Shown in pieces: positions 8,307 through 30,949 of a stretch of DNA of 64,000 bases. The notes under the pieces were generated by a model, which had not been told where the DNA came from, did no database searches, and was given only the letters and a program-made list of their open reading frames with translations. A program made the position numbers and the translations under genes. Positions within the stretch are counted from its first letter, which is position 1; the number at the start of each line of letters is the position of its first letter. Source of the stretch: Pomacea canaliculata (lineage: Eukaryota > Mollusca > Gastropoda > Architaenioglossa > Ampullariidae); NCBI RefSeq assembly GCF_003073045.1, contig NC_037592.1:9824007-9888006 (forward strand), written 5' to 3'.

Positions 8307-11300
8307 TTTTTCTTTCTTTTTGAAAGAAGGTAGGGAAGAATGTGGACGCATGTTTTATCGTTATTCTATCATTAGACTTCTCGACTTGCATGGTTTTAGA
8401 ATTTTCAAGTAGGTCCTGAAACCCAGCTCGGCAGTCAGTCATAAAGTTAATCTTACACCACCATTGTCCTGCTGCAGCATATAGTCCAAAGACCAATAGA
8501 CACATCGAAGAATTCTTTTGCGTATTTAAGTACAGAGAGGGCAAACCGTGGCTGAGCTGCGTCATCTGGTTCTGAATATGGAGGAGGTGAAAGTCAAATG
8601 GACCTTGTCCGCCAATCTGGGCGCCTCGCCACCCGCTGACCTCCGCCTCGTGTATGTCTACCGCAAGCAGCGTCGGGGCATATGTCCGCCGCTGAGCCCA
8701 CCTGACTCTTACATCAGGTTCGACATGGTTGCGGGTACTAGGGGCCTTCTCCTGCATCACCTCTTGCCAGGCTACGACTACGAGTACATCTTCACTGTCG
8801 AGTCTGCCACCGTCACTGCCATTAAGGAGACACTGAACGGGGAATTTTCCACCAAGCCTAATGGTTGGTCCCAGTAACATTAGTTGTCAACCCCATTTGG
8901 TAGAGCCACTAAGATAGCATCAACAGTTTGTCATTTTTTTTTTCATGTTGAATATCATCGCAGATATCATCGGCGTCAACAGTAATATTGTCATTGTTGT
9001 CATCGATGTAAAAATGTAAAAATAAAAACTCTTCTGGATTATTTATCCATCGTCGGAAATAATGCAGCCCAAATAAAATTTAGCATACATCCAGGTTCTT
9101 GCTGACATCGGCGTATACGAGTAGTAGTGATCGTCGACGTATCAGAAACGGACATTGTCGAAATAACTACTAGAGAGAAACTAAAACACATTTATTAATT
9201 TAAAAACGTTTTTGAAGTAAATAAAACAAAAATTCAGGTAAATTAGCTTGTTGGTACAAATGATTTCTGCAGGTGTACTGTGCACTGCAGACAGAGACAA
9301 TTGATTGGTCTCAACACAGGTTTGTACTGCCTAGACCAGGGATGGGCAAAGTTTTCTGTTTTCGGGCCGGTCTCCAAGTTCTAATCTATGCGGCGGGTCG
9401 GAAAACTACATAAAACCCACGCCAGGTGGCTACACAACAAACCTAATGATAAGGAAATGGACAACAAATGAGTAAACAACGGCGTTCTCTTAACGAATTT
9501 ATTTTTTAAAGTGAAGATGTTTAAATTCTCTCACAATAAAACTTTAAACCAGCCTTTCCTTTGAAGGCAGCCGCCCACGATGCTCTCTAACGACTCCATC
9601 AGACATGTCAGCCATGTTATTTGTTATCTTTTGACCTTTTCTGTGTTAGAATGTGGACTGACGATTTCTAATGCTGTTGTGCTTGATAAATTAAATTTCA
9701 ATCAGCCTACATTGAAAAAAAAAAAAAAGAAAACAGGTGGACTTTACAGTTTGGCAGATAGGCCGGTCCAAAGACGTCCGCGGGTCGTACTTTGCCCACC
9801 CCTGGCCTAGACCCTGGTCAGGTTTTTATTTATTTTCTCCTGCTCAAAAGTGCGTCATTTACTCTTTTCTTTCTGTGCTAACACTTGCCATCTTTTTCAT
9901 GCAGCACCCACTAGTACCATAGACGGGTTGTCGCTTCTAAACGTGTCAGCAACAGAAGTCACTGTCGGGTGGGTTGCCCCTCCGTGCGAAGAGCTGGGAG
10001 GCCCCGTCAGCCGCTATGAGGTGGAGTTATCAAGCCTGCAGATGCCGACCAACATTTCCTTCTCCGACAGTCTACAGGTTAAAAATATGTTCAAAGAACT
10101 CATTTTTCCGAGAATGTGATTTTTTCAGTTTACTTTTTTAGGTGGGGGAGAAGAGGGGAAAACAGATCTTGTTTTTGAAGGTTGCTGTATGTTTAAAAGT
10201 GCTCGAAGACTTTGAGCTGTTTATTCGAAATTCCTCGGTGGTGAGGGGAGGACATTTAATATTAATTCTTCATTCTGTCAGACTGTGTTTTCAAATATCA
10301 TTATCTCTTTCCAAGCATTTAGACATTTACAGAGTGTCGATTGAGGTCGATAATGTCGTGCTTCACTCCCATCCCCCATCGCACTAAGTGAGACTATAAT
10401 ATATATTATATTATGTAATATAATATTATTTCGAAAAAAGAGAACAGTTATGATCTCAGAAAGGAGCAACAATCAAAATTTTGTGTACGAAATGACCCAG
10501 ATGAAAGCTAAATAAATTATTCTTTGCGTATCTGCATTTCCCCATAGATTCATAAACAAGTTTCTTGTTTAATATGCAGCATATTAATCGAGTTCTTTTC
10601 GCTTCTTGATATACTGTCTTTATGAAAGTAAGTCTTCAGGAAATATTTCCGACACATTCTCAGTCACTAGAATTTTTTAATTTTTATTCGTTATTTTTAT
10701 AACTTTTTCTCGTTGCAAAAAATATTTAGATTCATTTTGACTCTGTAAATATCTTCTCTGGAAGCGGCCTTTCAACCAAGTGAGGTGTTTGACATAAGCT
10801 TGGAGACCGTCACCTTTTACGCTTTGGCACTACAGTGATACCTCGGTTCTCGAACATAATTCGTTCCGGGAGGACGGTCGAGAACCAAATTGTTCGAGAA
10901 CCGAAGCAATGAAACCCATAGGAAATAATGGAAACTGGATTAATTCGTTCCAAGCCCCAGAAAATGCCTATTTACTGGCCTAATTTGTATATAATATGTA
11001 GAAAAACATGAGTCTCAACAGAAATAAGAAATAAAAGTGTATTTATTAAAACAAAAAAAAATAAATAAAATGTACTGTACAGTACAGTAAATTGTGTTTC
11101 ATTTACTGTACCTCTACCAAACTTTATGGCAGGAGGGAATGAATGTGGAGGGAGGAGGGAAGGGGATGGTTATTGTATTGAAGGGGAGTCCTCTTCAATA
11201 AAAACAGAGGGTAACTGCTCTTCGGGTGTTTCTGTTCTCTGTATCTTTTGCTGAGGAGAATCAGAATCTTGCTCTGCAGTTGCTTGTCTGATTCTTTACG

Positions 11301-14300
11301 GAAGAATTTGTCAATTGTTTGCTGTTTTTTTCTCCTTTGCAAAATTTGCGGAAAGTGGACATAACATTGTCATTAAAAATGTTAACTGCTCTATTTGCTA
11401 CCACTTTATCAGTGTTGTTCAACAAAATTTGCGATTTCTGCCCATTTTGCACACATTTCATGACTCTCTCCACAAAACGTCACTCTCTCTCTCTGCACTC
11501 ACACTGATGACGCAAGCAAGGCGCGCTGGGCTGAATCAGAGATCTGTAGGTCCCTACAGATCTCTGGCTGAATGAACGCCATTCGGCTCAACTCGGCTCA
11601 TCTCGGACGTTCGGATGTTCGAGTTCCAAATATTTGTTCGGATTCCAAGACAAAATTTTCTCGAATTTCCTGGTCGAATACCGATTTGGTCGAAAACCAA
11701 GGCGTTCGAGAACCGAGGTATCACTGTATCTGTATGTTCCCCAGGCAACGCTGGTTGCCCTGAAGCCGTCCACCCGTTACGAGATCCGCGTGCGATATGC
11801 CAATGACATTGCACCGGGACCTTTCAGCGCCCCTATTATATTTGAAACACCCAGCGATGTCCGTAAGTTTATGCATTGCAAATGTGCATTATTTCAGAAT
11901 AGTCGTGGGACTTGATCCTCTTGACCAGACCTGGGCAAACGCCGGCCCGCCTCCTGTCTCTGACCGGTCCGCCCGCCCACCCGCCAGTATACAATATATA
12001 CAGTATTGTGTAAAACTGAGTTAACTATGTTAGTCCGGCCCTCGAAAACCATCCCAATGTCTCATGCGGCCCCTTGGGAAAATTAATTGCCCACCCCTGC
12101 TCTTGACAGTGAGTCACGGTCAAGTTGATGAAACTTGTAAAATTTATTACTTGGCAGCTCCTGCTCCGTCTCCACCCTTACGGGTGCGTCAAATATTTCG
12201 AGAGCTGCACTGTGTTGGACTGAGTTGGGACCCTGGACCAGAAAACGAAGAAAAAGTGATCAGCTTCGAGGTGGGCTACAAATGTAATAACCAGGACTTC
12301 ATCTGAAGCCTGCTTTGACGACAGTTCTTAAATAATGACAATTCTTTATTTACGAGCGTGGTAGAATAAGCAGAACTGTTTTTTTTACCTCTAGCCATCT
12401 CATTAAATAGGGATAAATACGCTAAACTGCTAATTTACTCAAATAATCGCAGATATGTCATCACAGAGCCAGCGAGATGCATGAAGTTGACATAAGGCGA
12501 TTCTCTTGGACAAACCTCTGTCATGGTGCAGTTCTTTTCGGCAGATATTTAACCTGGCCATTGCCAACACCTCGAAGAACTTGAAGGGGCACTGGTCGGC
12601 CCCAGCTGCTGCACGACAGACGCGCGTGTGCGGCCTGCAGCCTGGGCGAGAGTACTCGCTGGGCGTGGCGGCTCGTGGCCAACTGGCTCTGAGCTTGACC
12701 ACCAAAGTCGTGGTATTCACAGACCACTACGCGCCTCCTCCGCCCAGTCCGCTAGTGGTACGTCACACCCCGAAGTTTGCCCGCAGATCAGAAATAATCT
12801 CCGGGCTGTACCCTACCCTGCCTCTGACCTTTTTTGTAAATAAGTTCGCAAAAGATATACGTAGACAATGATCGTGTTAGGTACTTGTCAGAATGGATGA
12901 GTACAAGCCACAATCTCTGCAGATTGATGAATTTTATACTCTGTCTTGAATATTTCTTTGAGAGAAGATGAGAATTAAAATGTCCCCAAATTGAAGCAAG
13001 TGTGAACGTGAGACCAGGTACAAGTATTAAATGATAAAAATATAAGCTTATTAACATTATACACACACGAGAATGGGCTTACCGTAGAATTATATTAGAG
13101 CATGAAACTCTCAAGAGTGCAATAATATAAACATCTTGCGCATAAAACGTCAAGCAATTAAGACGAGGAATAAACGAGCATGCACTAATAGACGTCGTCT
13201 GCTACTTTTGTTCACTTTAATTGTTGATATTCATCACAGACAGACTGACATAATGCTATTTTCTGTTCAGTTATATATAATATGTTGTTTCTTCAGTAAA
13301 TGGCTTTAAAATAGTGATAATTTCTGTGAAAGTGTGATACACCTGAAATGAAGGTTTACTTGCATTAAAGCTAGTTAAGCGATTAAAAATGATGGGTGGG
13401 TGATTTATGGGACGGGGAGAGAAAGACATTCCTTCTATTCCTTCTTCACATGAGAAAGTCATCTTTGATTTTCCATTTCTTGTCTTATGCTTTTTACGTA
13501 CCACTTGCTAAAATTCGTTTTATTTCAACAGTTAAACAGCTGATAAAGTATGCATGTCTTTATCTGTAATTGTATCTCTCTCAAAAAATGACTTTAAAAA
13601 TGTTTCGGGTTGAAAGTGGAACATATTTTACCTGGCTCTTTAACATATCTTCCTCATAATTTCGATTAATAAAGCACTAATGTATCGTGTTTTAGAACAA
13701 GGCTATGAATTTTTCAAGGAATTTAATTTTGTATCAAGTTCTTTTGTGGTTTTTCTTTTTGTTTTATTTGTTTGTTTTTTCTTTTGTTTTTGTTTGTGTG
13801 TGTGTGTGCGTGTGTGTTTGTTTTTTTTAACCAGACCCAAGAAAGTTTCTGTTTTTGTTTGTAGTTAAGAAAATATCGGAAAACGCATGCAGTGTGTCGT
13901 CCCTAAATGCTGAATTCTAACCCGTCTTGAAAACAAATTAGATGGCTAATAGTGGCTAGTGAGTAATCTGGAAACTAGATTCCTTCGTTGCTGTAAACGT
14001 CATACTCCGTGTCAAAGGTGGTGTCGAGGACACTGAAAACGGTACTTGTAAAGCTTCGCCCCGTCGTATCCTCCCTCGTTGCCATCGCCTATTACTTGAT
14101 CTACGTGGCCGAGGGGATCCCGACCGAGCAGGAAAAAGCGGACGCTGGCATAGCAACGGGACCCAAAGGCATCGTCCCTTTTGAGCAGGCGGCGGAGAAG
14201 AAAGGCTCTGTATATAATCGGGTGAGGAGTGAGCAAGATTGCGCCATGCGTTGGCGTGCGTCTGTGTGCACACAGGAAAGGGTCGGCAAGTGAGCGAGAC

Positions 14301-17300
14301 AAGAAAATGCTTAAAATGCCGATATTGTGTTTCCCTAACGAAGCCGCCATTTGCCTCCAACATTTCACAATATGTAATATATCATTTCTAACGCACGCAT
14401 TGTCTTCCAACTCAGTGACTGAAGCTGCAACTGTATAACGATAATGGATATAAACGCAAACGTATCATTGTATAAGATCGACTTGCTGCATTAACCTCTT
14501 GATAGCAATATAATCATTAATATGATTGTTCATTCCATAACAATAAAAGATAAGTTGAAGTACTTGATGTTCTCTTTCTGTCAGACTACTGCAGACGGTT
14601 CCCATTTCCATCTAGACGGGAGTTCTGCGAAAGAAAGAACCGCTCGCTACACGGATCACGCTCCCAGTCACGTGAACTACACCACCATCGCAGGAACCAC
14701 TACTTCACAAACCTTGTACAACACCTCACTACAAACCTTGTACAACACCACGCCACACATGAACAACGTCACTTCACAGACCTTGTACAACATCTCCTAC
14801 AGACCTTGTACAACACCACTCCACACGACATGTACAATGCCACTTCACAGAATTTGTACAACACTTCAAATATCTTGTACAACAACACTGTACAGACCTT
14901 GTACAGCCCAACTCCGCACGTCACAAAGGTCTTGAGGAGCGAACCAGTAAGTGGACAGGCGGCAGGAGACGCGGGTGGAACGCACAGCCTGGCAACGGTC
15001 AGCATGCTGGACGTCGAGTCATTGGAAACCTGGAGTAGGTCCCAGGCCAATGTTCCCGTTCTCGCCTTAAAGCTCCAGAGAAACCTTCGCACTGGCGCTC
15101 ACCTGCAGACGCATGCTCGCTCAACAAAACGCAGCCATTTGGTTGGGTTGAACATTATGACGACGTATCTGGAGCTACAGTCGGACTCCATATCAAGATT
15201 CTTGACCGGACGTGGTATGTTAAACTTCCAAGGTGCCAGTCGACGCCAAACTGTATTGAGAACGGCTTTAAGGGCACACAAAGCTCGATCCAGCTCCGGA
15301 AGCAATGGCAGGTCTCGTCAGGATCAGGCAGGAGTTTTTAGGACTTTGGTGGCGGCGAGGAGGACGGCAGGAGTGGCACTTACGAGTGCCCGGCGGAGGA
15401 GGCAAAGTGAGGTGTTGTGGAACACCTCCCAACCTCCGGGAAGAGAGTATATGAAGCTGGAGCCCTCCGAGGTACATGACGAAATCTTGGTCATCATAGG
15501 CACCGGGGATGTGGTAGGCGGCGTCTACAATGAGCCGCTGGACCCCAGTGGCCGCTACGACTTGTATCTGGTCAGCTGCAGCGTGTGGGTGTCTGTCACG
15601 AAGTGCTCGGCCAGCACCAAGTCTACGGTGCACATGCCGAATGAGCCTTTCAAGTCCGGAAAGATGGGAACCGACTGGCGTACGGCGAACATCATCGCCG
15701 TCGTTGTCTCTGTCCTGCTGGCATTGGCAGTGGCGGTGACCGTGCTGTGCTTGCGGATATTTAACAAAACGCCTCGCTGGTACTTACGCAGAAAGATATG
15801 TCGCCTTCCGAGACCAACATCGCTTTTGCGCTGGCCCCGAAGTCTGGCATCGAGAGACACTGGAGCGATATCTCCCAGTTGGACCAGAAGCGTCATATTG
15901 TCACGGGCAGAGAACTGCTTCCAGCTGACCAGGTGACTGCTTTGGAGTCTTTTTTATGAAAAGTTTTTTCCACGATGTACATACACCATGGACATTCATA
16001 AACAGACAACAGACGGAGAAATACAATCTTTGACATCGTGGAAAAAAATTAACAAAATTAAACAAAACAAACCCCATACACACAAGGCACCGGATCGCTT
16101 TCAACAGCAAAAACAAGCCAGTTATCACAGTATTTTACGCACACTTTCTGGTCAAGATCAGGCTAATGCAAGAAGAGCACTGATCTTGACCCTGGAGCAA
16201 AGTAAGCAGTAAGAATGTCTCACAAATATGTAACGTAACCCCTCCCCCAGTTTTGGAGTCTTCTTCGCTTCCAATCGTCGTTTGCTAAGTCTTTGGTGAA
16301 TAATTTTAGAGTTGCAACAAACTAACAACATTTGTATGTTCTGTTGACTTTCTAGCATTCGTTGGCTCCACGTACGACACAGGTAATCCGCCGACTCAGG
16401 CCACAAATATTACATTCCGTGACGAGTTTGACAGTCTGCCCACCTACTTCTCGGGGACGGGCTACCACAGTATTTACATCAACTACTCACCCTCCGGCAT
16501 GCTCAGCGAGGCAAACGGGATGAGGCCAAACAACAACTCCAGCCTAGGCACTTTCATCAACGCAAGGTATGAGCACACAGGGCTTCACGATTAGTCTTCT
16601 TCATGAGTAGGGGGTGAGAATGAGAGCGCGTGTGTGCATGCATGCGTACGTTTCCCTACGACCCTCCATCCCCCCAAAATAAAGTGAATGAAAGAAAGAT
16701 AAAGTCAAGAGAAAAAAAAAAAGAGGACACGTTTGTCAGATTAGCACCACGTAGTGTTTCTCAAACTGTTTGTTCCTATCGCTGTCTTCCCGTCGTAGCT
16801 TCATCACAGGCTACGAGCAGAAGAAGCGCTACATCGCAGCCCAAAGTCCCTGCAGCGCGGAGAGCGCCCTCGACTTCTGGCGCCTCATCTACCAGGAGCA
16901 GGTGCATACCGTGGTCCTGTTGTCCAGCGTCGTGGAGGACGGCAGCATGCGGTGCTTTCAGTACTGGCCAGACATCGCGCCCGTCTATTTTGGACCCTTC
17001 AGGGTAACACGCGATGTCTTACACATTTCTGACTTAACGGTCACTTTACCATTGTCTGATGCGCAAATCGTACATACCGTCAATTTATTTACACTACCAC
17101 TCGGTGTCTCGGTGACTACACTAAATGACATTTGCAAGCTCTGACTATAATGTTTCATATTAATGGCGGTCCAAACACATACACACATATATGATACAAG
17201 GCAAATTGAGCACAGGTATAATTCTTCTCTCACTGTCCTAGAAGAGGAATATTGGCTTTCTTAATTTCCCCCGCCTCACCAGTCGCTTTGTTTCCCCTTT

Positions 17301-17762
17301 CTTTTATGAGCTAGCTGTGAACTATGACCTAAAATAAACCAATTTTCATGCACGCTTGGACAGATCCGACACGTGAAACAGCAGACAAGCTTCGCCGATT
17401 TCTCAGAGTACATGCTGGCGCTGAGCCTGCACAGAGGCGAAAGACGAGGCGGGGTCAAGGGTGGCGAAGAGCACCAAGTGCGCCTGTTGGTCTTCACCTC
17501 TTGGTACGAACCACAACTGTCTCGCGACCCGCACCCCTTGCTGGAACTGCAGCGCCGCCTAGGGACCCAGAGAGAACCGTACAACGAAACGCTGTTGGTC
17601 CACTGCGAGAACGGCTGCGGACGCACTGCCGTCTTCATCGCCCTCGACATCCTCATGGCTACCTACGCCAGCAAAAGGGAGGTAAGTGGTTCGGCCGTTA
17701 CTTTCTTTAGGATTCAGATTCTCAAGACTGCTCCACCTTTTCTTGAAGGGAGATTTAGCGTT

Positions 17763-17807
<45 letters not shown>

Positions 17808-20800
17808 TTGTCAAAAATCAAACAAATAAGACTGGGTCATAGCGAGCTAGGCCAACCTTAACAAATAAAGTGCAAGAAATGCCCGTTTATCAGAACGATT
17901 TCTAACATCATATATCAGACGTAGTTTCTTCTCATTACATTTACCTAATAATCTTAATGTGAACCTTTATTGAAGGTCAGTTTTTGTATGTTCATATACC
18001 TACTTCCGTTGACGTCCGAAAGGTGTCAGTTTATGAAGTTGTGTCCGGCATGCGGCGGGAGCGGCCCTACATGGTACACACCTTCGTGCAGTACCTGTTG
18101 ATCTACATCGCGCTTTTCGAGGATAAACACGCCGGTAACACCTTTTTGGACCTACAGCTGCCCACCTTCTACCACGACCTGCTGCGTAAGCAGCCCATCA
18201 CCAAACGCACCGTGCTGTACGATCAGTTCCAGCTCCTGTCGCTCGTCACCGAGGCTTACGTGCCGCCTCCGAAAGTGGAAAGCAGCGCGCCGCAGGTGGA
18301 GCAGCCCCAAGAGCTCCATCTGGGGAGGGGCGACGAGGAGGTCAAGCGGCTGCGACCGGAGGGCCCCAAGGTGGAGGATAGTGTCTAGGATGCCACCAGT
18401 ATGGCGTGGTCTTCGTGGACAGCTACAAGCGCCGTGGGCAGTTCATTCTGGCACCGTCGCCGACAGAGGCGAGCCTGGAGGAGTGCTGGCACCTCGTCTG
18501 CACTAACGATGTGCGCTCTGTTATCATCCTCGACCTCGTCAACGCAGCCAAGGTGAGGTTGACGAATGGATGTTTCCTGACACGGCCTGGCAACAGGTTT
18601 ATAGATTTATAAGGTGTGAACGCTCGCTAGTGCTGTATTAATCCGATGTCTGACTGTCAGCTGAACGATGGAAACTCGGCAGCATTCTTCTCTGTGGACC
18701 TCGGCTTAAATAGATATTTCATTTCGGAACGGTATGACGAACACAGATTTACACTTCCCACTGTGAGAAAGCCCATGGCAAGATAAGCACTGTGCATTTT
18801 TCGTTTCAATAATTGTATTTTGCGAATGCATCGTCATCAGTAGTAGTAGTTGTACATGATTCAAACTTCGACGTATCTGTCTGAACCCTTTTGTCTGAAA
18901 TTTTGTTGGTCATTGTGGCTGTAGAAGCCTCACCTTCCCAGACACGTCAGCATCTGTACAGTAGTATCTCGGTATTTGAAAAACGAGATCGTGAACACAG
19001 CACCAGGACAGGTCTTTACTGCTTGAAATCGAGGCACAAAATAACGTTTTCCCCTTTGTTTCACCCATACGTGTCACGAGTATGCGTGGTGTCTTATACA
19101 AGTGTATTATACGATGGTCGAGTGCCGAGAAAATTGTCAAGTAATAAAACAAAATTCTCTCGAAAATATCAGTCGAGGACCGAAAATGTTCTAGCACAAA
19201 GTAGTTTTAGTGCCATAGTACCATTATTACTGTAAAGTGCATATGCAAATTATTCGTCACCTTTAATTAACAGCTTTGACTTATTATAGGTTACAGGTGT
19301 CGTGGCATGGACATGCCTACTTGGTGAAGAAAGCGTGTAATATGAATCTTTATTCCCGCATTGATGTCATACATATGCCCTCTGTCTGTGCGGCGATGTA
19401 GAATGGCAGTGTTTTAAAGGATGGTAATCTAATGGAAAGGTTACTCAAGAGTTCAGAAGCTATTATCTTACAATAAATTCCAGTTAGGTTTTTTATTTTT
19501 AAAGTGGCGCTTGGACAGATCTTTTAAAATCCGAGGTAAGAACGAAAAATTGGAGCCGGCAGGCATAATCTCTCCCCAGCTAGTGATAGAGGTCTCATGG
19601 CTTCTTCTCTGCGGTCATTTCAAGAGAAACGGTAATGAACGTGGTGTGCAGAAACCACTGTACTGGCCCAGGATGGACGCTCGGCGTCTGGCATCTTTCT
19701 CTGTACATCGTCATGGCGCCTTCAACATGGACAGCACGGTTACCGTCTACACCGTCCAAGTGAAATGCAGACACCTTCCCGTCGCTAGCTCAAGGTAAGT
19801 CGACATTTGACAGCTCGTCTTTCATCTGACGAAAGAGTTCGTTCAGAACCGATCCTCCACCTCCTCCGCCACTCACACCTATGACTTGAAGATTTGTAGA
19901 AGGTTGACTGCTAATCTGTGGTCTGTCTTTAGACTAGTCCGTGTGTATCATTGCCGTACGTGGCCAAAGATCTCCCACAAGCCTCATCGCCTGGTCAAGA
20001 AGAGAGACGATAAGATCATCCCACATACCGACCATTTCAGAAGCTTGCTGCGTGTACTTGAACAGGTCAGGGCCAGTCAGTGCACAGGCATGCACATCCA
20101 CACACATTTTCTCTCACAATCAGATCGGGACGTACACACAATTCTCTCCTTCCTCAGAGAAACATTGGAAATTTTATCTCTCTCTCTCACACACACACAA
20201 TTCTCTCCTTCCTCAGACAAGCAGAGGAAACTTTCTTACAAATTTTTAGATGTCAAAGACCAGATTCATGCACTTCAAGCAAGACTTGTCCTTTGCATCC
20301 CCATACAGGTGGTGGCCTGGCAACAGGAGACCACGCACGAAAGCACGCCAATCCTGCTGCACTGCAGTGATGGCTTTTCGCGAAGCGGCCTGATGGTCGC
20401 AATAGCTCAGATGATCTGGCGAGCAAATGAGGAAGGCCGAGTGAGCATTTATCGTGTGGTTCGTCGACTCAGGATTTGCTGTCCCAATGCTGTTGCCCAC
20501 TACGTAAGTCTGACGCCGAATTATAGTTTACAAATTCAGGGTAATTTCTCTTGCGCACTAAGTACAAATTCAGGAAAGAGAGGAGTTTCCATATATAAAA
20601 CAGTCACTACCCGTTTCAAGATCACTTTTTCGTCACGATGGCCACAATCTAATTCTGGTCAGGGTAATGAAGCTACATACTTTTTTATTTAATGCTGGAC
20701 AATTTATTTCTGATAAAGCTTGACCCATTGCTGCCATTTGCTTCCTCGCTCATTGCCATACATAAACCTTTTTGCGACCCCATGCGCTTCAAGGAATGAA

Positions 20801-21641
20801 CTGTATATAAACCATTTCTGATCTACATGAAAATGTTTTAAAAAACTAACCCACCCTCTCCTATTTCATACCAGTTTTTCAATAAATTTATCTCCATTGT
20901 CTGTACATCAATGAGCTGAACAAGTTTTCTATCAGAACGGACTTTCATCAATGGCGAAATGTAAAGCAGTACCTATGTGTATGACAACTTTACCTACAGG
21001 TGCAGTACAAGTTTCTCCACAGACTTCTCTGGGTCTACACGCGAGGTGTTGTGGAGGAAGTACCTTCAGATGGCGCAAAGCCTTGCACTTACAACATAAC
21101 GGACGATGACAATCCCAAGACATCACCGGAAGTTGCTAACCCCCCTTCCTCGTAAGATAATTAGTTCAAGGCAACTATTGCTCAAACTGATGAAGAATGC
21201 GTTATTCTATGTCAGCCTTAGTGGAATGGCTTCGTCTGTAGTACCGATTGATCCTCAACCCCACGAAAAAGTCAAATATATTTTTAGATCACGTTATGAA
21301 AGTGTGTAGCAACATGGTCTGATTTTGCTTATGCTCGTTTCTTCTTTGTAAGGTTGTCAGTTCGTTTCTAGTCTTTCGTGCACAGCTCATTAAAGGTTGT
21401 CTCCAAACGGGAAATAAACATAACAAATTTTATTATTCTTCTGCTTCCTTGCATGCACACATGAACACGTCATGCACACCTGTCTCGTCTGTATTTGTAA
21501 TGTGTCCTAGCCGGTATGGCAGATTTTATCGCTGATCACATATTTTCTTTCAGTGCGGAAAGCGATACTGTTCACATGTCCATCGTGCATACAAGTGAGG
21601 AGATCATAGCGCACGAGAGTGAGTCTACGGAAATCAACTGA
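4530..21641 (+). CDS. Receptor-type protein tyrosine phosphatase-like gene (Ig, EGF-like, FN3, TM, two degenerate PTP domains); four frameshifts
   Basis: Exons: 4530-4563, 4758-5031, 5198-5296, 5919-6059, 6201-6263, 6335-6458, 7020-7246, 8121-8150, 8531-8863, 9905-10077, 11745-11862, 12158-12270, 12545-12757, 14018-14221, 14585-15932, 16400-16566, 16799-17003, 17364-17681, 18023-18552, 19652-19794, 19933-20065, 20309-20503, 21000-21151, 21554-21641. About 1,808 residues once four one-base shifts are allowed for. Order: signal peptide MFLTSLALLLM, Ig domain (WEWF ... GGDYKCSF), cysteine-rich EGF-like exons 3-5, FN3 domains (exons 6-14), membrane-proximal domain with minisatellite (exon 15), TM helix (15691-15750), PTP D1 (exons 16-19) and PTP D2 (exons 19-23). 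D1 has HCENGCGRTA and WYEP; D2 has HCSDGFSRSG and WPK. Family role: cell-surface receptor dephosphorylating phosphotyrosine, but altered motifs suggest weak or no catalysis. Shifts lie near 4897, 14797, 15765-15795 and 18375: recent pseudogene or assembly errors. The exact subfamily is uncertain. Confidence 0.82.
8238..8304. repeat. (TCTG)n microsatellite
   Basis: About 16 uninterrupted TCTG units inside an intron of the receptor phosphatase-like gene, between exons 8121-8150 and 8531-8863. Confidence 0.97.
9337..9804. mobile_element. hAT-type non-autonomous DNA transposon (468 bp)
   Basis: The ends are imperfect inverted repeats, CAGGGATGGGCAAAG at the left and CTTTGCCCACCCCTG at the right. 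The flanks are a perfect 8-bp duplication, GCCTAGAC, at 9329-9336 and 9805-9812. Terminal CAGGG.TGGGCAAA and an 8-bp target duplication are the hallmarks of hAT elements. No transposase frame is present, so it is a MITE-like copy. It sits in the intron before exon 9905-10077 and ends 100 bases upstream of that exon. Confidence 0.88.
10833..11726 (-). mobile_element. Tigger/pogo-type DNA transposon, internally deleted (894 bp), TA target duplication
   Basis: Terminal inverted repeats of about 24 bp start CAGTGATACCTCGGTTCTCG at 10833 and end in the reverse complement at 11726. TA dinucleotides flank both sides (10831-10832 and 11727-11728). On the minus strand, 11261-11473 encodes a relic that includes ANRAVNIFNDNVMSTFRKF, followed in another frame by TIDKFFRK. 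This resembles the C-terminal tail of Tigger/CENPB-like transposases (pattern R..N.FND....FR ... LD.F). Only this tail remains, with frame breaks, so the copy is not autonomous. It lies in an intron of the receptor phosphatase-like gene, with its right end 18 bases before an exon. Confidence 0.85.
11926..12099. mobile_element. hAT-type miniature element (174 bp)
   Basis: Begins CAGACCTGGGCAAAC and ends TTGCCCACCCCTG, with a perfect 8-bp duplication CTCTTGAC at 11918-11925 and 12100-12107. Its ends resemble those of the element at 9337-9804, so both probably used related hAT transposases. No coding sequence. It lies in the 295-bp intron between exons ending 11862 and starting 12158. Confidence 0.88.
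14700..14915 (+). repeat. Coding minisatellite in exon 14585-15932 (TLYNT-type repeat)
   Basis: Imperfect units built around ACCTTGTACAACACC recur about eight times and encode variants of S-Q-T-L-Y-N-T/N-S/T, many forming N-x-S/T glycosylation sequons. The units run through a one-base frame change near 14797 and continue in the new frame, which shows that the repeat was once in a single frame. It falls inside the region expected to form the membrane-proximal extracellular domain. Confidence 0.8.
17763..17806. repeat. (CAA)n microsatellite
   Basis: About 14 to 15 CAA/ACA units in the intron following exon 17364-17681 of the receptor phosphatase-like gene. Confidence 0.95.
20135..20217. repeat. 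Short direct repeat in an intron
   Basis: The 24-base string from 20135 to 20158 (core TTCTCTCCTTCCTCAGA) recurs at 20194-20217, with a period of 59 bases. Both copies contain a splice-acceptor-like TTCCTCAG, but neither is needed for the coding phase. Confidence 0.85.
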
Positions 21642-23478
21642 AGTTCTGCAATTTTGAAGCCAGAGAATGTAAGGACTGAGAGATAACGCTGTGTTGTTGA
21701 TGATGGAGGTAGCAGCCTTTTTCTACAAACTTAGACTCTGCATGTCTGAGTCGTAACTTTTGAAAACAGCTGGCAACATCACCTGTATTTTCTTTGTGCT
21801 TAATTTGACTTTTTTGATAAAGCATATTTTGTAATTTGATACTAATGGGCAACATCAGAAGCTGAGATGACTAGCCCTAATATTTGAATATATATTTTAA
21901 TACAGAAAATACACAAACTATATCAGTATGTGCTATTCATTGAATTAAGAAAAGGCTTTGATTTTATGACATCTTGCAATTGCCTTACCCAATTTTACTT
22001 TTAACGGACTCTTCTAAATTGTAACAAAGACCTATTTGCACTGGCATCCTAGCTAAAATGTATCGAAGATTTAAGTCACATTAATAGCTCAGCGAAATGG
22101 TAATAGTTTAAACTAGGTTCCTATCTCTTTTATTAAATTTCTAGGAAATATTTTATCAATGTTTCTACTACCAACAAATGTAATATCACATTTTAAGATC
22201 AAGTCTAACACTTAAAACACTGTGTATAAAGTGAAATAAAAAAATTTAGCCTTAAAAATATAAAAAGCAAATATAAACCAAATAATTAGATTCTAGCTTA
22301 TCCAGAAGAAAATTGTACAATGATTTTCAGATGTGTTAACAATGATTCTAAAATACTCCAGCAATAAGTTACTAGTATGTTTTGTTATTCTCTGGTTCTG
22401 CTATATTTCCAACACAACTACTTTTCAAGACCTAGTGGCAGCTTGCTGATCATTTGTCACAGCTTACTTAACCACCTACTACTACTTCTCAAGACTGGCT
22501 GATTATTTGTGACTTGCAACTCAAGGACACAAGTCTCTCTTAGTGGTACATCTGAAATTCTTACTCATATCCCCAGGGTATCCCAAGTTGGTAGCCCCTG
22601 GTTTTAGTTGGGAAAAAACACTTTATTCTGTTGTTCGCATGCAACTGTTGAATTACAACCAAGAAGTTTTACTTGATGCACTTACTTGATGGCCCCTAAA
22701 ATAAATTATTAATGCCTTCTTTTGATGCAATGGGACAAAGTGTTATGCAGAAATTCATACACTGAGGCCATACTCTTTTGCATCCATTCCCCAAAAGGAA
22801 AATGTGTACTCTTTTTTCCATGTTCCTGCAGATGGCGGTCAGTATTTAACTCATGTGCTAGCAACACACAATTTAAGTGCATGACTGCCACCTTCACCTT
22901 CTCATCCAACTTTTTAAAAGGTAAGAAGATGCAAACTCTTGTAAGCAGTATATAACACTGTTTAATTTTTGGCGAATTTTTCCATTTACTGTCCTCAACA
23001 AGTCAGCATGCTACAACAATATCACACGATACTTTTGTTTTTATACCAGTATGGAATGGCACAGAAAAAGCAAGTGATTTAGATGGCAAGGACCTGATAA
23101 AGGTAATTTGATCCCATTTATACAAAGAAATTCCTTTATATTTTAAAATGAAAAGTGACATTACCAACATTAATACATCCCGCCCCAATTCCCTGCCCAA
23201 AGAATCTTTTTGTAAATTAAGCCCAAATCACTATATATATATATACACAATACTAAAGAAAACCACCTACCGTGATTATTTTCTGATGGAAGTCATACAC
23301 AGACATAACACATTTTATGATAAACTTTACAGCATAGCAACCATACTAAATAACCAGTTTGGTCTGAGAGATGACTTTAGGTCAGTCAATGAAGTCCTAC
23401 TGCTGACAATGTTTGAGTTTTTCTCCCTTTCAAATGGGACTATGCACATTTTACAGTTTAATCTAAGGCAACATATTA
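21642..23478. other. Convergent intergenic region: 3' UTRs of the receptor phosphatase-like gene (+) and NUP50 (-)
   Basis: AT-rich, with no recognisable coding sequence. On the + strand, AATAAA at about 22235-22240 is a candidate poly(A) signal for the phosphatase-like gene. On the minus strand, TTTATT at about 22622-22627 (AATAAA in that orientation) is a candidate for NUP50. If both are used, the two transcripts end about 400 bases apart without overlap. The right-hand part carries one copy of a short dispersed repeat (23321-23412). Confidence 0.5.
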
Positions 23479-24256
23479 TCAACCTGCAGATTTTGTCTCT
23501 TCTAATTTGGCCAACAACTCATCAGCATCTTCAGATGTCTTCACACGAATAAGCATTGGCACTGGGTCTGTGCTGGGTGTTTTTTCATCTAAAGGTGGAT
23601 TTGGCACACATACAATAAACACATTATTCTTGCCTTGCTTCTTTGATGGCATAGCTTGTGATAGAAGAATATTCAGCAAAATGTTACCTGGGAGGAGAAA
23701 AAAACAACACGTGAAAGTGTGAATGTCACTGATAAGGGTAGTCTGTTTTCATTTAAATGATCAAATTGAATGTCACATTTGTTCAAAATGTGCAAGCTTA
23801 CGTGGATTTGCATATTCATTCACACACACACACAGTAGAGATTTTTACCTAGATTGGTATCTGCCCGGATGATAAGCTGGAACCGCCCATCCACAGGTTT
23901 GAGGTGTAGATTACCAACACCTTTGTCTACCCACTGACCATCCTTCTGAAAGAAGAGTTTGCATCTGGCAAAAAAAAAAAAAAAAAAAGGTTTTAAATGT
24001 GGTTAAAGATTAAAGGCAATGTTGTGTCCAGAAAAAACTTATGAAAAAAATATTCTCCCTTATACTATGCAATATCTGCTAAAGCCATGCAGATAATGAG
24101 AACTCTCCATGAAACACTAAAGAAAAACTGATGCCCAATTTTTCCTTCCTTTCAATTTGCAATAAACATTACAGCATAGCAACAGTACTAAATAATCAGT
24201 TCAGTCTGAAAAATGACTTTGGGTCTATCAATATGAAGTCCTATTGCTGATAATGT
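23321..24256. repeat. Pair of ~93-bp dispersed repeat copies
   Basis: 23321-23412 and 24163-24256 align along their whole length (both contain TTACAGCATAGCAAC, ACTAAATAA.CAGTT, ATGACTTT.GGTC, GAAGTCCTA.TGCTGA). They differ by about one base in six. One lies in the NUP50 3' flank and the other in the intron between its last-but-one two exons. The repeat family is not recognised. Confidence 0.7.
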
Positions 24257-27200
24257 CAGAAAAATGCTACAGGAATTTTAAATGATAATACTGTAAACAG
24301 CACAGACTAGGTCTGCAGTAACTCGAGGATAGCTGAAAATTTTATTATGCTTAAGCATAGCTGGCAATTTAAAAAATACTTTAATTAGCTATAACTGTCA
24401 AGTCCTGTAGGCACCAGATGCCAAAGAAAGAAATATTTAGTCTTTGTATAACTTTTCAATTTTCCCAGCTGCCAAGAAATTTTTTAAAAATTCGTCAAAA
24501 AAAGAAAATGGAAAATTCCTCTGTAGATACCTAAATAAGTTAAAATGCTAAAACAGCAACATACAATTCTGACATGGACACCTGACTATGCTTATTAATG
24601 TAACAGTTTTGCTACTGAGACCCAGTTTCGGTGATTTTTAATCAACCCAACAAAGATGGTCATACTCTACATATTCTAATGACTGAACATTCAACTTCCC
24701 CACTCAACAAATAGTCTTCATGTAAAGTTTTAAAGAACATTGAATAAAATTTTTGTTAAAACATTCTTTTGAGGGACAGTAGTGGAATGCAATTCAGTTA
24801 AAACTACATACTTCTTAGCTGTGCAGCAAGACCTCATCATTAAGACACGTTTTGTGATCCCCCACTCCCCTGCCCAGATACAACACAAAAAGTTTAAATG
24901 GATGTATTTCACCATATAAACATTATCCCTATTATGACTACATCTCCAGCATGACTTGCAACTGACAGTTTGTGCTTCATTACAACCTTTTAGCAAAAAT
25001 CCCACTTTGAAAAAGATGTCCATTTTAAAATGGACTGCTTCTGGCTGGCTGCTTGCCCAATATTACGATTTTCTAGAAAAAATACAAGGTAAATTAAGTA
25101 CATTTTGAAAGAGACTATTTGTTCCTCAGGTCACCAGTTATTTCCACCCAAAACCATTGTCTCAGCATTATCAACCATCAATCCCAGTTATATTTACCCT
25201 ACCATGACCATAATCATTCCCTATAAGACTACACCACAACACCGGAAAACGAATCAATGAAGAAAAGAAGAAAAAAAAAAAAGAAAACACCAATGACAGT
25301 TACATCAACGTCAGTTTCAACCAACAGAGCTATGCAATTTGAACATATTTATGTTTCACTGTTATATCTTTTTTTCACCAGTGTACATTAGTCAATTGTG
25401 CTTCCCCAATGACCTTGCTGCCAAAGTCACCTGTTTATAATTCTTGTGGCCGACGGTGCTCTTTTGCTTTTTTTTTTTGCAGCAATCACTTTTGAAAAAA
25501 TCATATATAGTGCATTGAAAAGAGCATCTTTGTCAACCACAGTGCAGTGCTTTTACCTGGATAATTGTAAATAAATGAACTTATGACCTGATCTGGTGGA
25601 TTTTTGTAAGTCTTAACAGGGAGGATTTATGTATAAATAAAAGGTTAACACCAGCTTTAGCTGGTTACATTCTGGACAGTTCTGTCAGCTGTTTTTATGT
25701 TTGTTTTTATACAAGATTTTTAAATACATTTAAAGGATGAATCCATTCCGTTACTGTCAACATATCCAGACTTTTTAAAATGTAATTCCTTTCCGAAAAC
25801 AGAAGCAAAGCATATCAATGGAGACTGATGTTCTATGTATTTTCTGACAGTTTGGTGCAGTACAGTCCACAAGGTCAATTGTGATTACCCTTACTCTGGC
25901 TAATCCCTATTCAATTTATTCATGATGAGACAGATATCCCTTCACCCAACTGGCTAGAGGGTGACGGCTTTTCCGTCACTTTTTATCTTTGCCTGTTGAT
26001 CTGCAAATTTTGTGTCTAATAAATCTATGCATTTGTTACACAATTTGCGATGTTCCTGGATTTATGTGTCTGTATCCTTTTTTTTCCTGGACCTTTTTGT
26101 TTCTATTGTCTGCGCAATCTTCCCATTTTAAAGCTGTGCATCAGGTGTCAATTTCAGAATGATTCCCTTTTCTGGAACTGCTCCTTTATGTTTTGATGTT
26201 GCAATCACAGCATATGGCTGGCAATGTGTATTTCTTTAAAGTGACTGTTAGCGTGATCATCTAACAAGAGTTTTGTGTATAGAATGATATTTATGTCTGA
26301 AGTTAGGCCACTGCTCCTAACATAGTGAGGAGAGCTTCACACAAATGTCATAATAAGTTTGTGACTTAAATGGAAGTTTTTATACACATACCAAGTTTTC
26401 AATGTGGCCCTATTGCAGATGTTTGAACAGCACATTCAGTAAAATGATAATGGAGATTTTGTTTGGGGGGGGGGGGGGGAAATCACCAAAAGGTCAGAAT
26501 ACTTAATTTCCCTCCTAAATCTGATAATAAAAATTCCTTCAAAATTATAGTTGGTTTAGAAAAAATAGTCTAAATGTAGAAGACAGTACACAGACATTAA
26601 AAAAATAAAGACAGATGATGAGTCAGCAAAGATATCATTTCAATAAATTTTACCAACTCACCCACCTACCTGATCAAAACATTCAATGGGTTTGAAGCGT
26701 TGTGATCAATGCAAAGTGATAAGATATTAAGTGGATTTTAGCAAGTCTTAATGGAGGTTTTATGCATAAACAAAAGGCTGACAAAGCTTTATATAAGGTG
26801 TTTTACTGGCTACCCACATTAAAAGCTGAATTATCCTACCTCTTTGAAAAGATAGCTCCTTCCTCCTTGATCTCGCGAACTTCAGGTTGTGGCGGAACAT
26901 AAGGAGCATTTTCGTCATCACCATCCACTGTGAGCAATAAAATTACATTTTATTTGGTTTACAAGATTGTTTGCAAAGAAAAGTAAGAGCCAACGTTAAT
27001 AGACCAATATAAGCTTTGTTTACCTGCCAATACAAATTATAAGGGGCACATGATGAGATATAGCGGTGGGGAAGATGCGCCAACAGGTTTAAAATTAAGT
27101 AGCAGCTACCTCTGACAAATAATTGATTAATAATTTTTATGAAAAAGCTGACCCTTAGATATTTTGAAAATCATGTAATAGTCAAGCACCAACCATTAGT

Positions 27201-30200
27201 TTTCTCTTGTGAGTTGATGGTAGCTGCATTTTGTGAGCTTTGCTGCCCAAAGCTGAAAGATGGAGCAGTTTTTCCAGAGCTAGATGAAGAAAGAAAGCAT
27301 CCATTGCTAGATTGGCCAAACTTGAAACCTTCAAAAGCAGGAGCTGTAACAGAAAATAATCCAACATTTTTAAAAGACTTTGATGATGAAACACACATAT
27401 CTTTTAAATCTCCCTTTTCTGCAGGCAGCATAATGTGAATTTTGTAGCTCCAGTACTGTTATAATGTACTGGCTACATTTTTAACTCTGTACATTACGGT
27501 TACCATGCCAGTCATAAACAAATTATCAACAAAATTGTTAATACTGCAACACAGTATTCCAAGGTAAATTTAAGTAAACAGTTCAGGGTGTCTTCATGAG
27601 AAAGAACTATTACTTGCAGAAATGCTAATTTTCTGTGCATCTTCCAGCCATCACTATAATCAGTTAAGTAAAATAGACTTAGTAATGGACTCAAAGGATT
27701 CAATACAGTTAAAACTTTATATGCTGCACCATTAAAATTACACATGCACAATCATTCTGTATCTACAAACATTGCTGATTCATCTTCCTGTAGAAACAAT
27801 ATGTGCTTCTTAGCACTGAAAAGGCATCTAATGCAGGCACAGACCTGAAATTGGACGAACTTTTTTTTTTAGCCATCTTGAGATTATGGCATATTGTGAA
27901 TGTTCAACAGGTCCTCTACCGACTCCTTGAGAGGTTTTTCATAAGCCATGTAGAAAATAATGTAAACTTTGTCAAAGTGAGGCAAAGGACGTCAGAACCA
28001 TATAGGCCCAACTGAAGGGGGCTGCCCAAAACCGGGTTTGCTGGCGAGGTATTTTTGTGGCCCTATGCTCCTCGGGGAGTAACGAGGACTAAACTGTGTT
28101 CATTTTATGCAGGAAAATATTAAAAGATGGCTGTATTTTCCATTAAACACTTAAATTGCCTCCTGGGATGAATAAAGTATTTTTTTAAATTGGCTGTTAG
28201 GCTTAGATGAAACAGAACAATTTTTAACTTTAATAACTTTTCTCAGTTTCTTTTTTTTTATATTTGTTCATTTTAAAACCTTTATACTGGCATGTGATGC
28301 AGGCCTAAAACTTTGTTAATCTTTCTCTCTATGTCTTTAAACATTTTAGAGTTGTCCTATCAATTTAGTAGTTAACGTTTCAAATAATTTTTTTTCTGAA
28401 ATATAACGATTTCCAACAAAATTCATACCAAAATAACTAGTTTTTACTGATTTCCAAACTTTTACATGTAGATCTTTCTGTCATTTAACTATTTTAGAAA
28501 GAATTTAGAGTTTATTCAGTACAGGGAAAAAAGTTATAAGCTTTTGAAATTGTTTAGGCCCATCTTTGTTTCTTGGCAACTCATGTGGCATGTCAAAACA
28601 AAAAAAAGCACAAATGATTCCAAATTAATGCATTAAATTTTTTTTTAGCAGTATCTAGCCAACACTTATTTTTTAATCCACATAACTTTTTAACATTCAA
28701 TATTTTGATGCAATTTGCTGTATAAAAAAGCAAGTGAGAAGATCTGAATAATTTGAGAAGAGCACAGGCTAAAATAAAATTGAAAAATACCAAATACTCC
28801 TGTTATAGGTTGTTGATGCAACAGCTAAAACTCTTCACTTTGTGAGAATTTGCTATCATGAGTTTGGATCTTGGCTTTGTCACTCTTTTCTGTAAATCTG
28901 ACACCTGTTTACTAAGCTTATCATCAATGATATTCTCAGATTTCCCGTCATGTATGTGTGTGGAATATGCTGAATTTTATTCTACCCCTAAGTGTACCAC
29001 AAAACAAGATGTATCAAAAATACTGTTTGCAAACTATTAACTATCTATAAACACTTTTGTAAATTTTTTATACAAAATTTTATGATATAAAGAGTTATCA
29101 ATAAACACGCATAAATAATTAGCCTTGGAAAATGATAAAAAAGTCCCAGGGGGCCTAAATTTGATCAATGACCACAATTTAGAACTACCAAAAAAAGTGC
29201 CATGTCACTTAAAAAAACCCTATGGCATAAAATAGGCACCTTTGCATTTTCTTTATTCTCGTACTGACAGAATAAATAAAAAGTATCAGCCACATAACAC
29301 ACTTTGTCTAGCCTTAGACACTATATATTAGACCCTAAATTGTGCATTTTGGGAAACTAGGTATGGAAATTATTTTCTACCTCCCACCCCCAAGAAACTA
29401 AATAAAAACTTTAAGGACAACTGAAAAATAACTGCTAGTTTGCAAGCAGCTTTATCCCTGTTTAATGCATACAACATTTAAGCTCATAACTGCTTTTCTG
29501 ACCACACCAACCACCACTGGTAAAGCAGCAGTTTGTCAGCATGTGAACGTTTCCTCTGTGAAATTCTCTAAAACAAGTAACACAACAATCAAAAGTTTAC
29601 CTTTATTTTCCATCTGCTTAGTGAGCCCTTCAGACTTTTCAGCACTGCTAGACTGGGAAGCCAAGCTAAATGAAAACCCTGAAGCTGGCACAGGACAGGA
29701 AGGCACTGCTGTTGAAGGCTTGTTTAACTTAGTGGTTGCTTCATTTTCACTGACTTTGTCTTGTTTTCCAGGATTTTTTCCCTGGTATTTTTCCTCCATG
29801 CTTAAAAGGTGTTTTTCATAGTCTTTGAAAGATGGAGTAAGGATACAATAAGGATTCTCGTTAACATGCTTTTGGATCCAAGTCAAAATGTTCTCGTTAA
29901 GTGTCTTCAGCTGTCGCAAATATTCAGGGTGATCTTTAACTTCTTTCCCATTGCTGTGTGTTGAGCAGCTGGACTGAGCTGTTGTCAGACTGTTGTTGAA
30001 ATTCAAAGGAGAACTTGTTGTGGATGCTCCCGATGGTTTGAATGAAAAACTGCTGAACAGGCCTGCCTGGAAATTATTTAGAATGGCAATTACCTCTTAA
30101 ATTTTCTTCTCTTTGAATGATATTTACCTGTTTTCAACTTGCTATTTCAATGGTCCCTATTTTTTGTAATTTTACAGACCATATATTACTAAGATTATAA

Positions 30201-30949
30201 CTAAATCTCAATAAGTCACATAACACACTACGATCAAATATAAAGTCCACAATAACAACAAAATTTCTCATGCTTACTCCACTTCCACCATCTCCTTGTA
30301 TTGTCCTCTTAGCTTTTCGAATTACTCGCGTCTTTAAGACATCCTCATCTGCCAGCACAAAACTCCCTGCCTGTGCAAAAGATTTGGGGGTTAAAGCAGA
30401 AGGAGAGAGATCATAATTATTCCCTACTCACAAATATCAGAAGTAAAAACATGCCATGTTTTCACTAATCATGTTAACAGAGAACGTTAACTCAATGGCA
30501 AACATCTGAAATATCAGATTCGCTACTAATAGCTTTAAGACAGTGCACAGTGTAGTATTTATATGCAGATTTCCACATTTTAGGTGGATGCCATGCTCTA
30601 GTGACTTTTGGCATGGCATATAATGATGATAAAGGGAATTTACATAGTACATTTCTCTACTTAATAAAAGATTCAATGAACTGTAAAAGAAAGAAAAGAA
30701 AAAGGCCAATACACAAATAAAGGAAAACACAAAATTCAAACAGTAAAGAAAACCAAAGCAAGCACAATATTCTATAGATGACAACAGCGGACTCCTGGTG
30801 AATTCTGGATTTCTAGAAAATTTATAAGCAATATGGAAAAAATATATGTGTATTGTACGGTGTACTATTCAAGTGCTTACTTCCTCAGATTCTTCCTCCA
30901 CATTCCAGTTTTCATGGTTTAGCTCTGTTGCTGCGTTTCTTTTCGGCAT
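23479..30949 (-). CDS. NUP50: Nuclear pore complex protein Nup50, complete
   Basis: Nup50 is a mobile nuclear-basket nucleoporin that binds importin-alpha through its N-terminus and Ran through a C-terminal Ran-binding domain, speeding cargo release and recycling. Coding exons in transcript order: 30949-30881, 30370-30278, 30066-29601, 27343-27194, 26927-26840, 23964-23849, 23687-23479. They sum to 1,191 bases (396 residues plus stop) with every phase matching. It starts MPKRNAATELNHENWN and continues EDVLKTRVIRKAKR, both typical of the Nup50 N-terminal importin-binding segment. The middle has FG-type motifs (FSFGQ, FKFGQ, GFSFSLA) and LRQLKTLNENILTWI ... NPYCILTPSFKDYEKHLL. The end, RCKLFFQKDGQWVDKGVGNL ... 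FQLIIRADTNLGNILLN ... VFIVCVPNPPLDEK ... LIRVKTSEDADELLAKL, is the Ran-binding domain. One donor is the unusual GTTGGT (after 27194), supported by phase. No frame damage. Confidence 0.95.
25596..26812. repeat. Pair of ~75-bp diverged repeat copies in the large NUP50 intron
   Basis: 25596-25668 and 26731-26812 share an order of blocks: GTGGATTTT, CAAGTCTTAA or TAAGTCTTAA, GGAGG.TTTATG.ATAAA, AAAGG.T.AC and CTGG.TAC. The copies are direct and clearly diverged. Family unknown. Confidence 0.5.

Follow-up and report, generated by a model that had tools for sequence, protein, structure and literature searches.

A tandem receptor tyrosine phosphatase-like gene of Pomacea canaliculata with altered catalytic motifs in both phosphatase domains

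Organization of the locus

We analysed a stretch of 64,000 nucleotides from the gastropod Pomacea canaliculata (hereafter, the window; NCBI RefSeq assembly GCF_003073045.1, contig NC_037592.1, positions 9,824,007 to 9,888,006 of the forward strand), which carries on its plus strand sequences for a receptor-like protein tyrosine phosphatase (PTP) with two phosphatase domains in tandem, D1 and D2. An earlier note, made from the sequence alone, had described altered catalytic motifs in both domains and proposed a probable receptor pseudophosphatase. The region 14000-22500 (window positions, used throughout) was inspected by reading, and 12000-22000 was translated in every frame.

The phosphatase part consists of nine plus-strand exons spanning 16400-21641. 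D1 is encoded by exon 1 (16400-16566, which may instead use an acceptor before 16356), with the shortened phosphotyrosine-loop region GYHSIYINYSP at 16460-16492 followed by TFINA; exon 2 (16799-17003), with DFWRL, the equivalent of Glu115 (PTP1B numbering here and below), the putative backdoor Cys at 16953-16955 and YWP; exon 3 (17364-17681), with the WPD loop WYEP at 17502-17513 and the PTP loop HCENGCGRTA at 17601-17630; and the first part (18023-18385) of the fourth exon, 18023-18552, which carries the R254 equivalent, the Q loop HTFVQ at 18077-18091, the last helix and the D1-D2 linker. D2 starts within the same exon (18388-18552, reading YGVVFVDSYKRR ... LVNAAK) and continues through exon 5 (19652-19794, with YWPRMDARR), exon 6 (19933-20065, with the WPD loop WPK at 19961-19969), exon 7 (20309-20503, with the PTP loop HCSDGFSRSG at 20360-20389), exon 8 (21000-21151, last helix and tail) and exon 9 (21554-21641, C-terminal tail and stop). 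An (ACA)15 microsatellite occupies 17763-17807, in a D1 intron.

The nine exons are separated by 8 introns, each with GT-AG borders and a matching phase, and the reading continues in phase on either side of a frame break described below; the only stop codons within the nine exons are a TAG tied to that break and the terminal stop. The joined exon products contain two PF00102 domains in tandem, both above the cut-off of 20.9 bits (D1, 171.3 bits, 3.4e-50; D2, 100.4 bits, 1.5e-28). In the PDB, D1 is matched best by PTPRE, PTPRA, PTPRS, LAR and CD45, and the matches of D2, which are weaker, are to tandem receptors of the same kind. G+C content at third codon positions (GC3) is 0.73-0.85 in four D1 stretches and 0.54-0.85 across the exons scored (exon 9 lies outside the scoring), and the G+C content of the eight introns is 0.37-0.46. 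Because the exons that carry the altered motifs are bounded by GT-AG introns, agree in phase and give products matching PF00102, the motifs are not chance occurrences.

Upstream of the phosphatase part, a membrane-proximal domain and a putative transmembrane segment (ANIIAVVVSVLLALAVAVTVLCL) are encoded at 15445-15765 (plus strand), as judged from codon scores and, for hydrophobicity, by eye; over 15440-15780 the codon score is 40.1 in the transmembrane frame versus -22.2 and -42.8 in the other two. The stretch 15445-15801 yielded weak Pfam matches to Fn3_PTPRU (0.021) and PTP_tm (0.17). It is followed by a juxtamembrane coding stretch (15787-15932, plus strand, recognized by codon score), ending at the donor GTGACT, the phase 0 of which fits the phase 0 acceptor before 16400. 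Farther upstream, in the ectodomain region 9811-12868, there are four FN3-like open stretches on the plus strand, three of which match Pfam fn3 below the curated cut-off (1.9e-4 for 9811-10116, 1.2e-4 for 11550-11912 and 0.026 for 12491-12868); the fourth, 12034-12306, has no Pfam family match and is FN3-like by eye only. An EGF-like open stretch at 5903-6091 (plus strand; Pfam EGF_STAB1-2, 5.6e-5, 23.9 bits, below the curated cut-off of 27) probably belongs to the receptor ectodomain. Taken together, the weak EGF- and FN3-like stretches and the Fn3_PTPRU-like domain suggest a receptor of the EGF/FN3 type. No MAM or immunoglobulin (Ig) domain, as found in the MAM-Ig-FN3 ectodomains of the R2B family (PTPRU, PTPRK, PTPRM and PTPRT), turned up in the chosen open stretches that were scanned, which do not amount to a search of the whole ectodomain.

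The codon scores show that the long open stretch 14554-15936 does not form a single reading frame, and a segment inside it, 15175-15399, scores as coding in no frame. Nine copies of a 24-bp tandem repeat lie at 14698-14905, upstream of the transmembrane segment, and read LYNTT-like in two frames in turn; the LYNTT reading is doubtful because of these repeats.

Active-site residues of D1 and D2

Both domains were aligned using MAFFT with PTP1B and with D1 and D2 of PTPRA, PTPRE and PTPRS. The aspartate of the WPD loop is the general acid of catalysis; D1 lacks it, with WYE at 17502-17510, and the loop as a whole carries P180Y, D181E, G183Q, V184L and P185S (WYEPQLS versus WPDFGVP). In the PTP loop of D1, S216E and A217N are accompanied by a Cys at 219, that is, at C+4 (17616-17618), and H214, C215, G218, G220 and R221 are kept. 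The Q loop, HTFVQ, departs from QTxxQ through Q262H, with T263 and Q266 kept, so that the loss of the canonical motif claimed in the earlier note applies to the first Gln, the second having been retained. The note's statement that NRY is replaced likewise stands in part: KNRY is not found in D1, N44 and R45 have no partner in the alignment, and a Tyr is placed by MAFFT at Y46 in an uncertain alignment. The segment from EF to INA counts 44 residues in D1, 8 fewer than the 52 of PTPRA, and 51 in PTPRS; thus, the phosphotyrosine loop of D1 is shortened, not merely substituted. Elsewhere in D1, E115, C121 and R254 are kept and K120 is replaced by Arg; from its place, the C121 equivalent (16953-16955) appears to be the backdoor Cys.

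D2 carries D181K, G183S, A217D, G220S, Q262A, T263H, E115A and R257C, and both K120 and C121 are missing; by this alignment, D2 has lost more than D1. The catalytic Cys and Arg are retained in both domains, as the note had said. Its spellings of the motifs are also correct, each lying at or next to the place it gave: HCENGCGRTA and W-Y-E-P in D1 at 17601-17630 and 17502-17513, and HCSDGFSRSG and WPK in D2 at 20360-20389 and 19961-19969.

Replacement exons, other copies and neighbouring features

The note had named an alternative intronic exon supplying canonical motifs as an observation that would overturn its proposal. No such exon was found between DYINA and the Q loop with a profile of six PTP domains, for which all 2143 open stretches of 20 or more amino acids on the two strands of the window were scanned; the five stretches that the profile matched at E values up to 1 are all exons already in the model. 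For NRY, the search consisted of a pattern scan and a weak profile. In the scan, which covered 15933-21650 and looked for strings resembling the WPD, NRY, PTP-loop and Q-loop motifs, no canonical WPD or Q loop turned up in a phosphatase context; the sole plus-strand WPD belongs to the YWPD that follows the E loop.

One candidate exon was considered and not used. The 102-nt stretch 18661-18762 (plus strand; phase 0/0, acceptor CAG, donor GTGAGA, reading LNDGNSAAFFSVDLGLNRYFISERYDEHRFTLPT) lies in the intron after 18552 and holds an NRYx5YDx2Rx2L string spaced like the phosphotyrosine loop of PTPs, which occurs once in the window versus 0.02 times per mononucleotide-shuffled window (150 shuffles). 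It was set aside because the pattern had been relaxed post hoc, a phosphotyrosine-loop profile gives it an E value of 23 and the stretch lies downstream of the place that it would serve.

Searches of the window for other phosphatase copies (tblastn, eight queries) returned only weak matches outside the modelled exons, the best being 0.016 at 6185-6331 and 0.19 at 6020-6115. In 20 mononucleotide-shuffled windows the best E values ranged from 0.022 to 3.0, so that 0.016 is slightly better than all 20. We nevertheless take both matches as chance: no motif lies in either alignment, both being interrupted by a stop or rich in mismatches, and the stretch 5903-6091 reads as EGF-like.

Two other features were recognized in the window. 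A NUP50-like gene lies at 23485-30373 on the minus strand, with tblastn pieces matching human NUP50 (at best 68% over 68 amino acids, at 23485-23688). A PHD finger is encoded at 44821-45126 on the plus strand (PF00628, 4.5e-10); its wording resembles that of PHF21A.

Working receptor, decaying gene or assembly artefact

We favour the reading, to which we assign a probability of roughly 0.5, that the gene encodes a PTPRU-like tandem receptor pseudophosphatase with an FN3-like ectodomain and is working now or was until recently. Weighing against it are the spread of residue loss over D1, the weakness of the test for conservative replacement, the replacements in D2, two frame breaks, and the activity of some PTPs with altered motifs.

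Invariant positions were defined as those identical in PTP1B and in three active D1 domains (PTPRA, PTPRE and PTPRS). Of these, D1 of the window keeps 9 of the 19 that belong to catalytic loops and 28 of the 54 that do not (Fisher 0.79). Its losses fall on the catalytic loops no more than on the rest of the domain, and a selective loss of catalytic residues was accordingly rejected as proof of a pseudophosphatase. For D2, which starts at position 66 and was counted from there, the figures are 9 of 16 and 16 of 46 (Fisher 0.15). The human D2 domains of PTPRA, PTPRE and PTPRS keep 16, 15 and 16 of the 19 catalytic-loop positions and 37, 38 and 43 of the 54 others; thus, the divergence of D1 of the window extends over the whole domain and exceeds that of each of these human D2 domains.

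The kind of replacement was scored against an expectation from random single-step mutation changes. Outside the catalytic loops, D1 replacements are conservative, with 11 of 21 scoring positive in BLOSUM62 versus 6.3 expected (fraction 0.011) and a summed score of 13 versus -11.8 expected (fraction 0.0004), and inside the loops 2 of 8 are positive versus 1.7 expected, with a sum of -5 versus -6.0; gaps or the unalignable stretch 53-56 removed 5 of 26 positions outside and 2 of 10 inside from the count. Read from these substitutions, the changes in D1 are the pattern of a retained fold with a released active site. D2 displays no such conservativeness (6 of 26 positive outside, 4 of 30 positions being excluded as gaps, and 1 of 7 inside). 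The test is a weak one, with 21 of 26 lost positions scored, four references and a one-step null, and it missed all 3 folded human D2 domains used as control: the summed-score fractions were 0.064 for PTPRA, 0.28 for PTPRE and 0.096 for PTPRS (calculated from 17 of 17, 13 of 16 and 9 of 11 of the lost positions), none of which reaches 0.05. Given that domains known to fold are missed, the null result for D2 of the window says little.

The earlier note had overlooked two breaks of the reading frame, at 18379-18388 and near 15765-15786. At the former, inside exon 18023-18552, the D1 frame gives way to the D2 frame with one base short: the D1 frame closes at the TAG at 18386-18388, the D2 frame does not open until 18382, and codon scores trained without this exon change frame at the same place. 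As assembled, D1 and D2 therefore do not share one reading frame, for which an assembly error is a possible cause. The linker from the last D1 helix to the D2 core comprises 54 residues up to 18385 plus 4 after 18388, close to the 52 of PTPRA, so that nothing large is missing at the break. The other break sits between the transmembrane segment and D1, in 15753-15786, where the transmembrane frame passes into the juxtamembrane frame, again one base short; the best-scoring points are 15765 and 15783, and placing a break at 15765 raises the codon score from 0.14 to 20.1. With the frame broken between the domains, the gene may no longer yield a full-length protein; if this break is real, the protein ends after D1.

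Small unmodelled introns could remove both breaks and leave the assembled gene intact, an explanation that we consider very improbable. For the break between the domains there are 40 frame-keeping GT-AG pairs at least 40 nt apart, the best by eye being 18296-18399 (CAG|GTGGAG, 104 nt), with an acceptor at 18400 the pyrimidine content of which, 0.53, falls inside the 0.40-0.80 of accepted acceptors; for the break after the transmembrane segment there are 13 such pairs, with donors that are poor by eye. However, 18296-18385 has the composition of coding sequence, with G+C at 26, 10 and 25 of 30 first, second and third positions (Fisher 1.8e-6), the G+C content of 18296-18399 is 0.66 versus 0.37-0.46 in the eight introns, and its excision would leave approximately 24 linker residues versus 52 in PTPRA and 54 + 4 if it is retained.

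Alternatively, the gene may be that of a normal receptor in a draft assembly, with both breaks being sequencing or assembly errors and D1 being partly active or, as in PTPRQ, directed at another substrate class. In favour of this, each break shifts the frame by a single base in the same direction, and a four-A run lies where the break after the transmembrane segment may fall; against it, the break at 18379-18388 is outside any homopolymer. By sequence alone, a sequencing error and a lesion look alike. As to residual activity, D1 keeps Cys, Arg, Glu115 and the second Gln. PTPD1, with WPE, and PTPD2, without the phosphotyrosine-loop Tyr, are inactive on phosphopeptides, yet hydrolyse 6,8-difluoro-4-methylumbelliferyl phosphate (DiFMUP) at about the level of CD45, and cellular activity has been reported for both (PMC2638020). 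Altered motifs are thus no proof of a dead enzyme. PTPRQ, with WPE, is described as preferring phosphoinositides (PMC7320164, PMC2638020). On the other side, D1 has, beyond the change of D to E, P180Y, Q262H, S216E, A217N and a shortened phosphotyrosine segment, and PTPRU, also with WPE, had no measurable activity on phosphatidylinositol 4-phosphate (PI4P) or phosphatidylinositol 4,5-bisphosphate (PI(4,5)P2) (PMC7320164). We regard a normal receptor as unlikely, less so than the small introns.

Somewhat unlikely, although the strongest of the competing explanations, is a young pseudogene, in which function has been lost, the motif changes reflect partly or wholly relaxed drift, and both breaks are genuine lesions. 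The break at 18379-18388 with its D1-frame stop, the second break after the transmembrane segment, the spread of D1 losses over the whole domain and D2 replacements no more conservative than random are all consistent with this possibility, as is the state of the NUP50-like neighbour, the five pieces of which (one weak, E value 0.33) display by eye no break except one stop at the end of a piece, probably in an intron; this control covers a few hundred bases and decides nothing. Against decay, all 8 introns are canonical and in phase, no stop is present besides the TAG at the break and the terminal one, although stops would be expected after long neutral decay, and GC3 in the scored exons is 0.54-0.85 versus an intron G+C of 0.37-0.46. 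The proposal of the note that turnover is lost is partly supported: impaired catalysis in both domains is supported by the sequence and by the precedent of PTPRU, but the frame breaks had escaped the note and the gene may be decaying.

Predicted function of D1

For a tandem receptor pseudophosphatase, the PTPRU and PTPRK work offers the closest guide. In that study, changing D to E in the WPD loop lowers the turnover of PTPRK approximately 115-fold; D1 of PTPRU (WPE, GSRQ for KNRY, Thr at C+4) is inactive and still binds substrates, including those of PTPRK, which it is proposed to protect; and transplanting the PTPRU phosphotyrosine loop into PTPRK D1 abolishes activity (PMC7320164). The missing phosphotyrosine-loop Tyr is given as the likely cause of the inactivity of PTPD2 on phosphopeptides (PMC2638020). 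D1 of the window unites several such changes, to which Q262H and the Glu and Asn of the phosphate cradle are added, and it is expected to be strongly impaired towards phosphotyrosine, the hydrolysis of which would be absent or lowered by orders of magnitude. The suggestion of the note that binding may persist is made doubtful by the Glu and Asn of the PTP loop, since phosphotyrosine could be repelled by the acidic residue at 216, and by the shortened wall of the pocket.

With the fold, Cys215, Arg221, Glu115 and the backdoor Cys kept, D1 could serve as a docking or decoy module in competition with active phosphatases and, by analogy with PTPRU, may protect substrates and be under redox control; the core of the fold, the catalytic Cys, the Arg and the backdoor Cys are the features on which PTPRU draws for its redox-sensitive, non-catalytic role. 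The Cys at C+4 stands where PTPRU has T1089, the side chain of which lies 3.0 A from the catalytic sulphur (PMC7320164), so that a second disulphide partner is conceivable. A more specific version of the pseudophosphatase reading, which we offer as speculation and consider unlikely in its entirety, is an independently evolved, double-dead invertebrate receptor phosphatase in which selection has held the fold and released the active site and the PTP loop has become a two-cysteine redox switch (C-E-N-G-C beside the backdoor Cys). Such a receptor would draw substrates away from active paralogues as a decoy and might now be shedding D2 through the frame break.

Comparison with known receptor phosphatases

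The gene resembles human PTPRU in its two domains, which follow a probable transmembrane segment, and, within D1, in the Glu that replaces the WPD Asp, the divergent phosphotyrosine loop, the uncommon residue that the PTP loop has at C+4, and the retained catalytic and putative backdoor Cys. D1 of the window differs in P180Y, PTPRU having WPE, and may also differ in Q262H, S216E and A217N, and the gene differs in its shortened phosphotyrosine segment, FN3-like ectodomain and frame breaks; R254, which is kept in the window, is Cys in PTPRU (PMC7320164).

The D2 domains of PTPRA, PTPRE and PTPRS share with D1 of the window Glu for the WPD Asp and losses in the phosphotyrosine loop, but keep 15-16 of 19 catalytic-loop and 37-43 of 54 other invariant positions versus 9 of 19 and 28 of 54. 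IA-2 has an Asp at the PTP-loop Ala position, as does D2 of the window, whereas PTPRN and PTPRN2 (IA-2 and IA-2beta) have a single phosphatase domain and a different ectodomain. PTPRQ has an FN3 ectodomain; it differs in being a single-domain phosphoinositide phosphatase, and its chain 4ikc matches D1 of the window with 94.7 bits versus 122.7 for the single-domain PTPRE chain 6d4d. The published likenesses are that PTPRN and PTPRN2 are receptor pseudophosphatases changed at the PTP-loop Ala (PMC2638020) and that PTPRQ has a WPE loop (PMC7320164, PMC2638020).

Among the literature matches listed, no receptor pseudophosphatase of molluscs or annelids was present, most subscription papers being outside the coverage. 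The study of PTPRU presents it as an exception among human receptor phosphatases, which combine an active D1 with an inactive D2 (PMC7320164). A decaying gene would be ordinary. PTPRU already provides a tandem receptor with a dead D1, so that the gene of P. canaliculata is, if alive, a further case of a known kind; if it evolved separately, such a second case would point to the loss of catalysis with the receptor kept as a repeated route, and would provide a natural test of which residues are dispensable while substrate docking or redox sensing stays.

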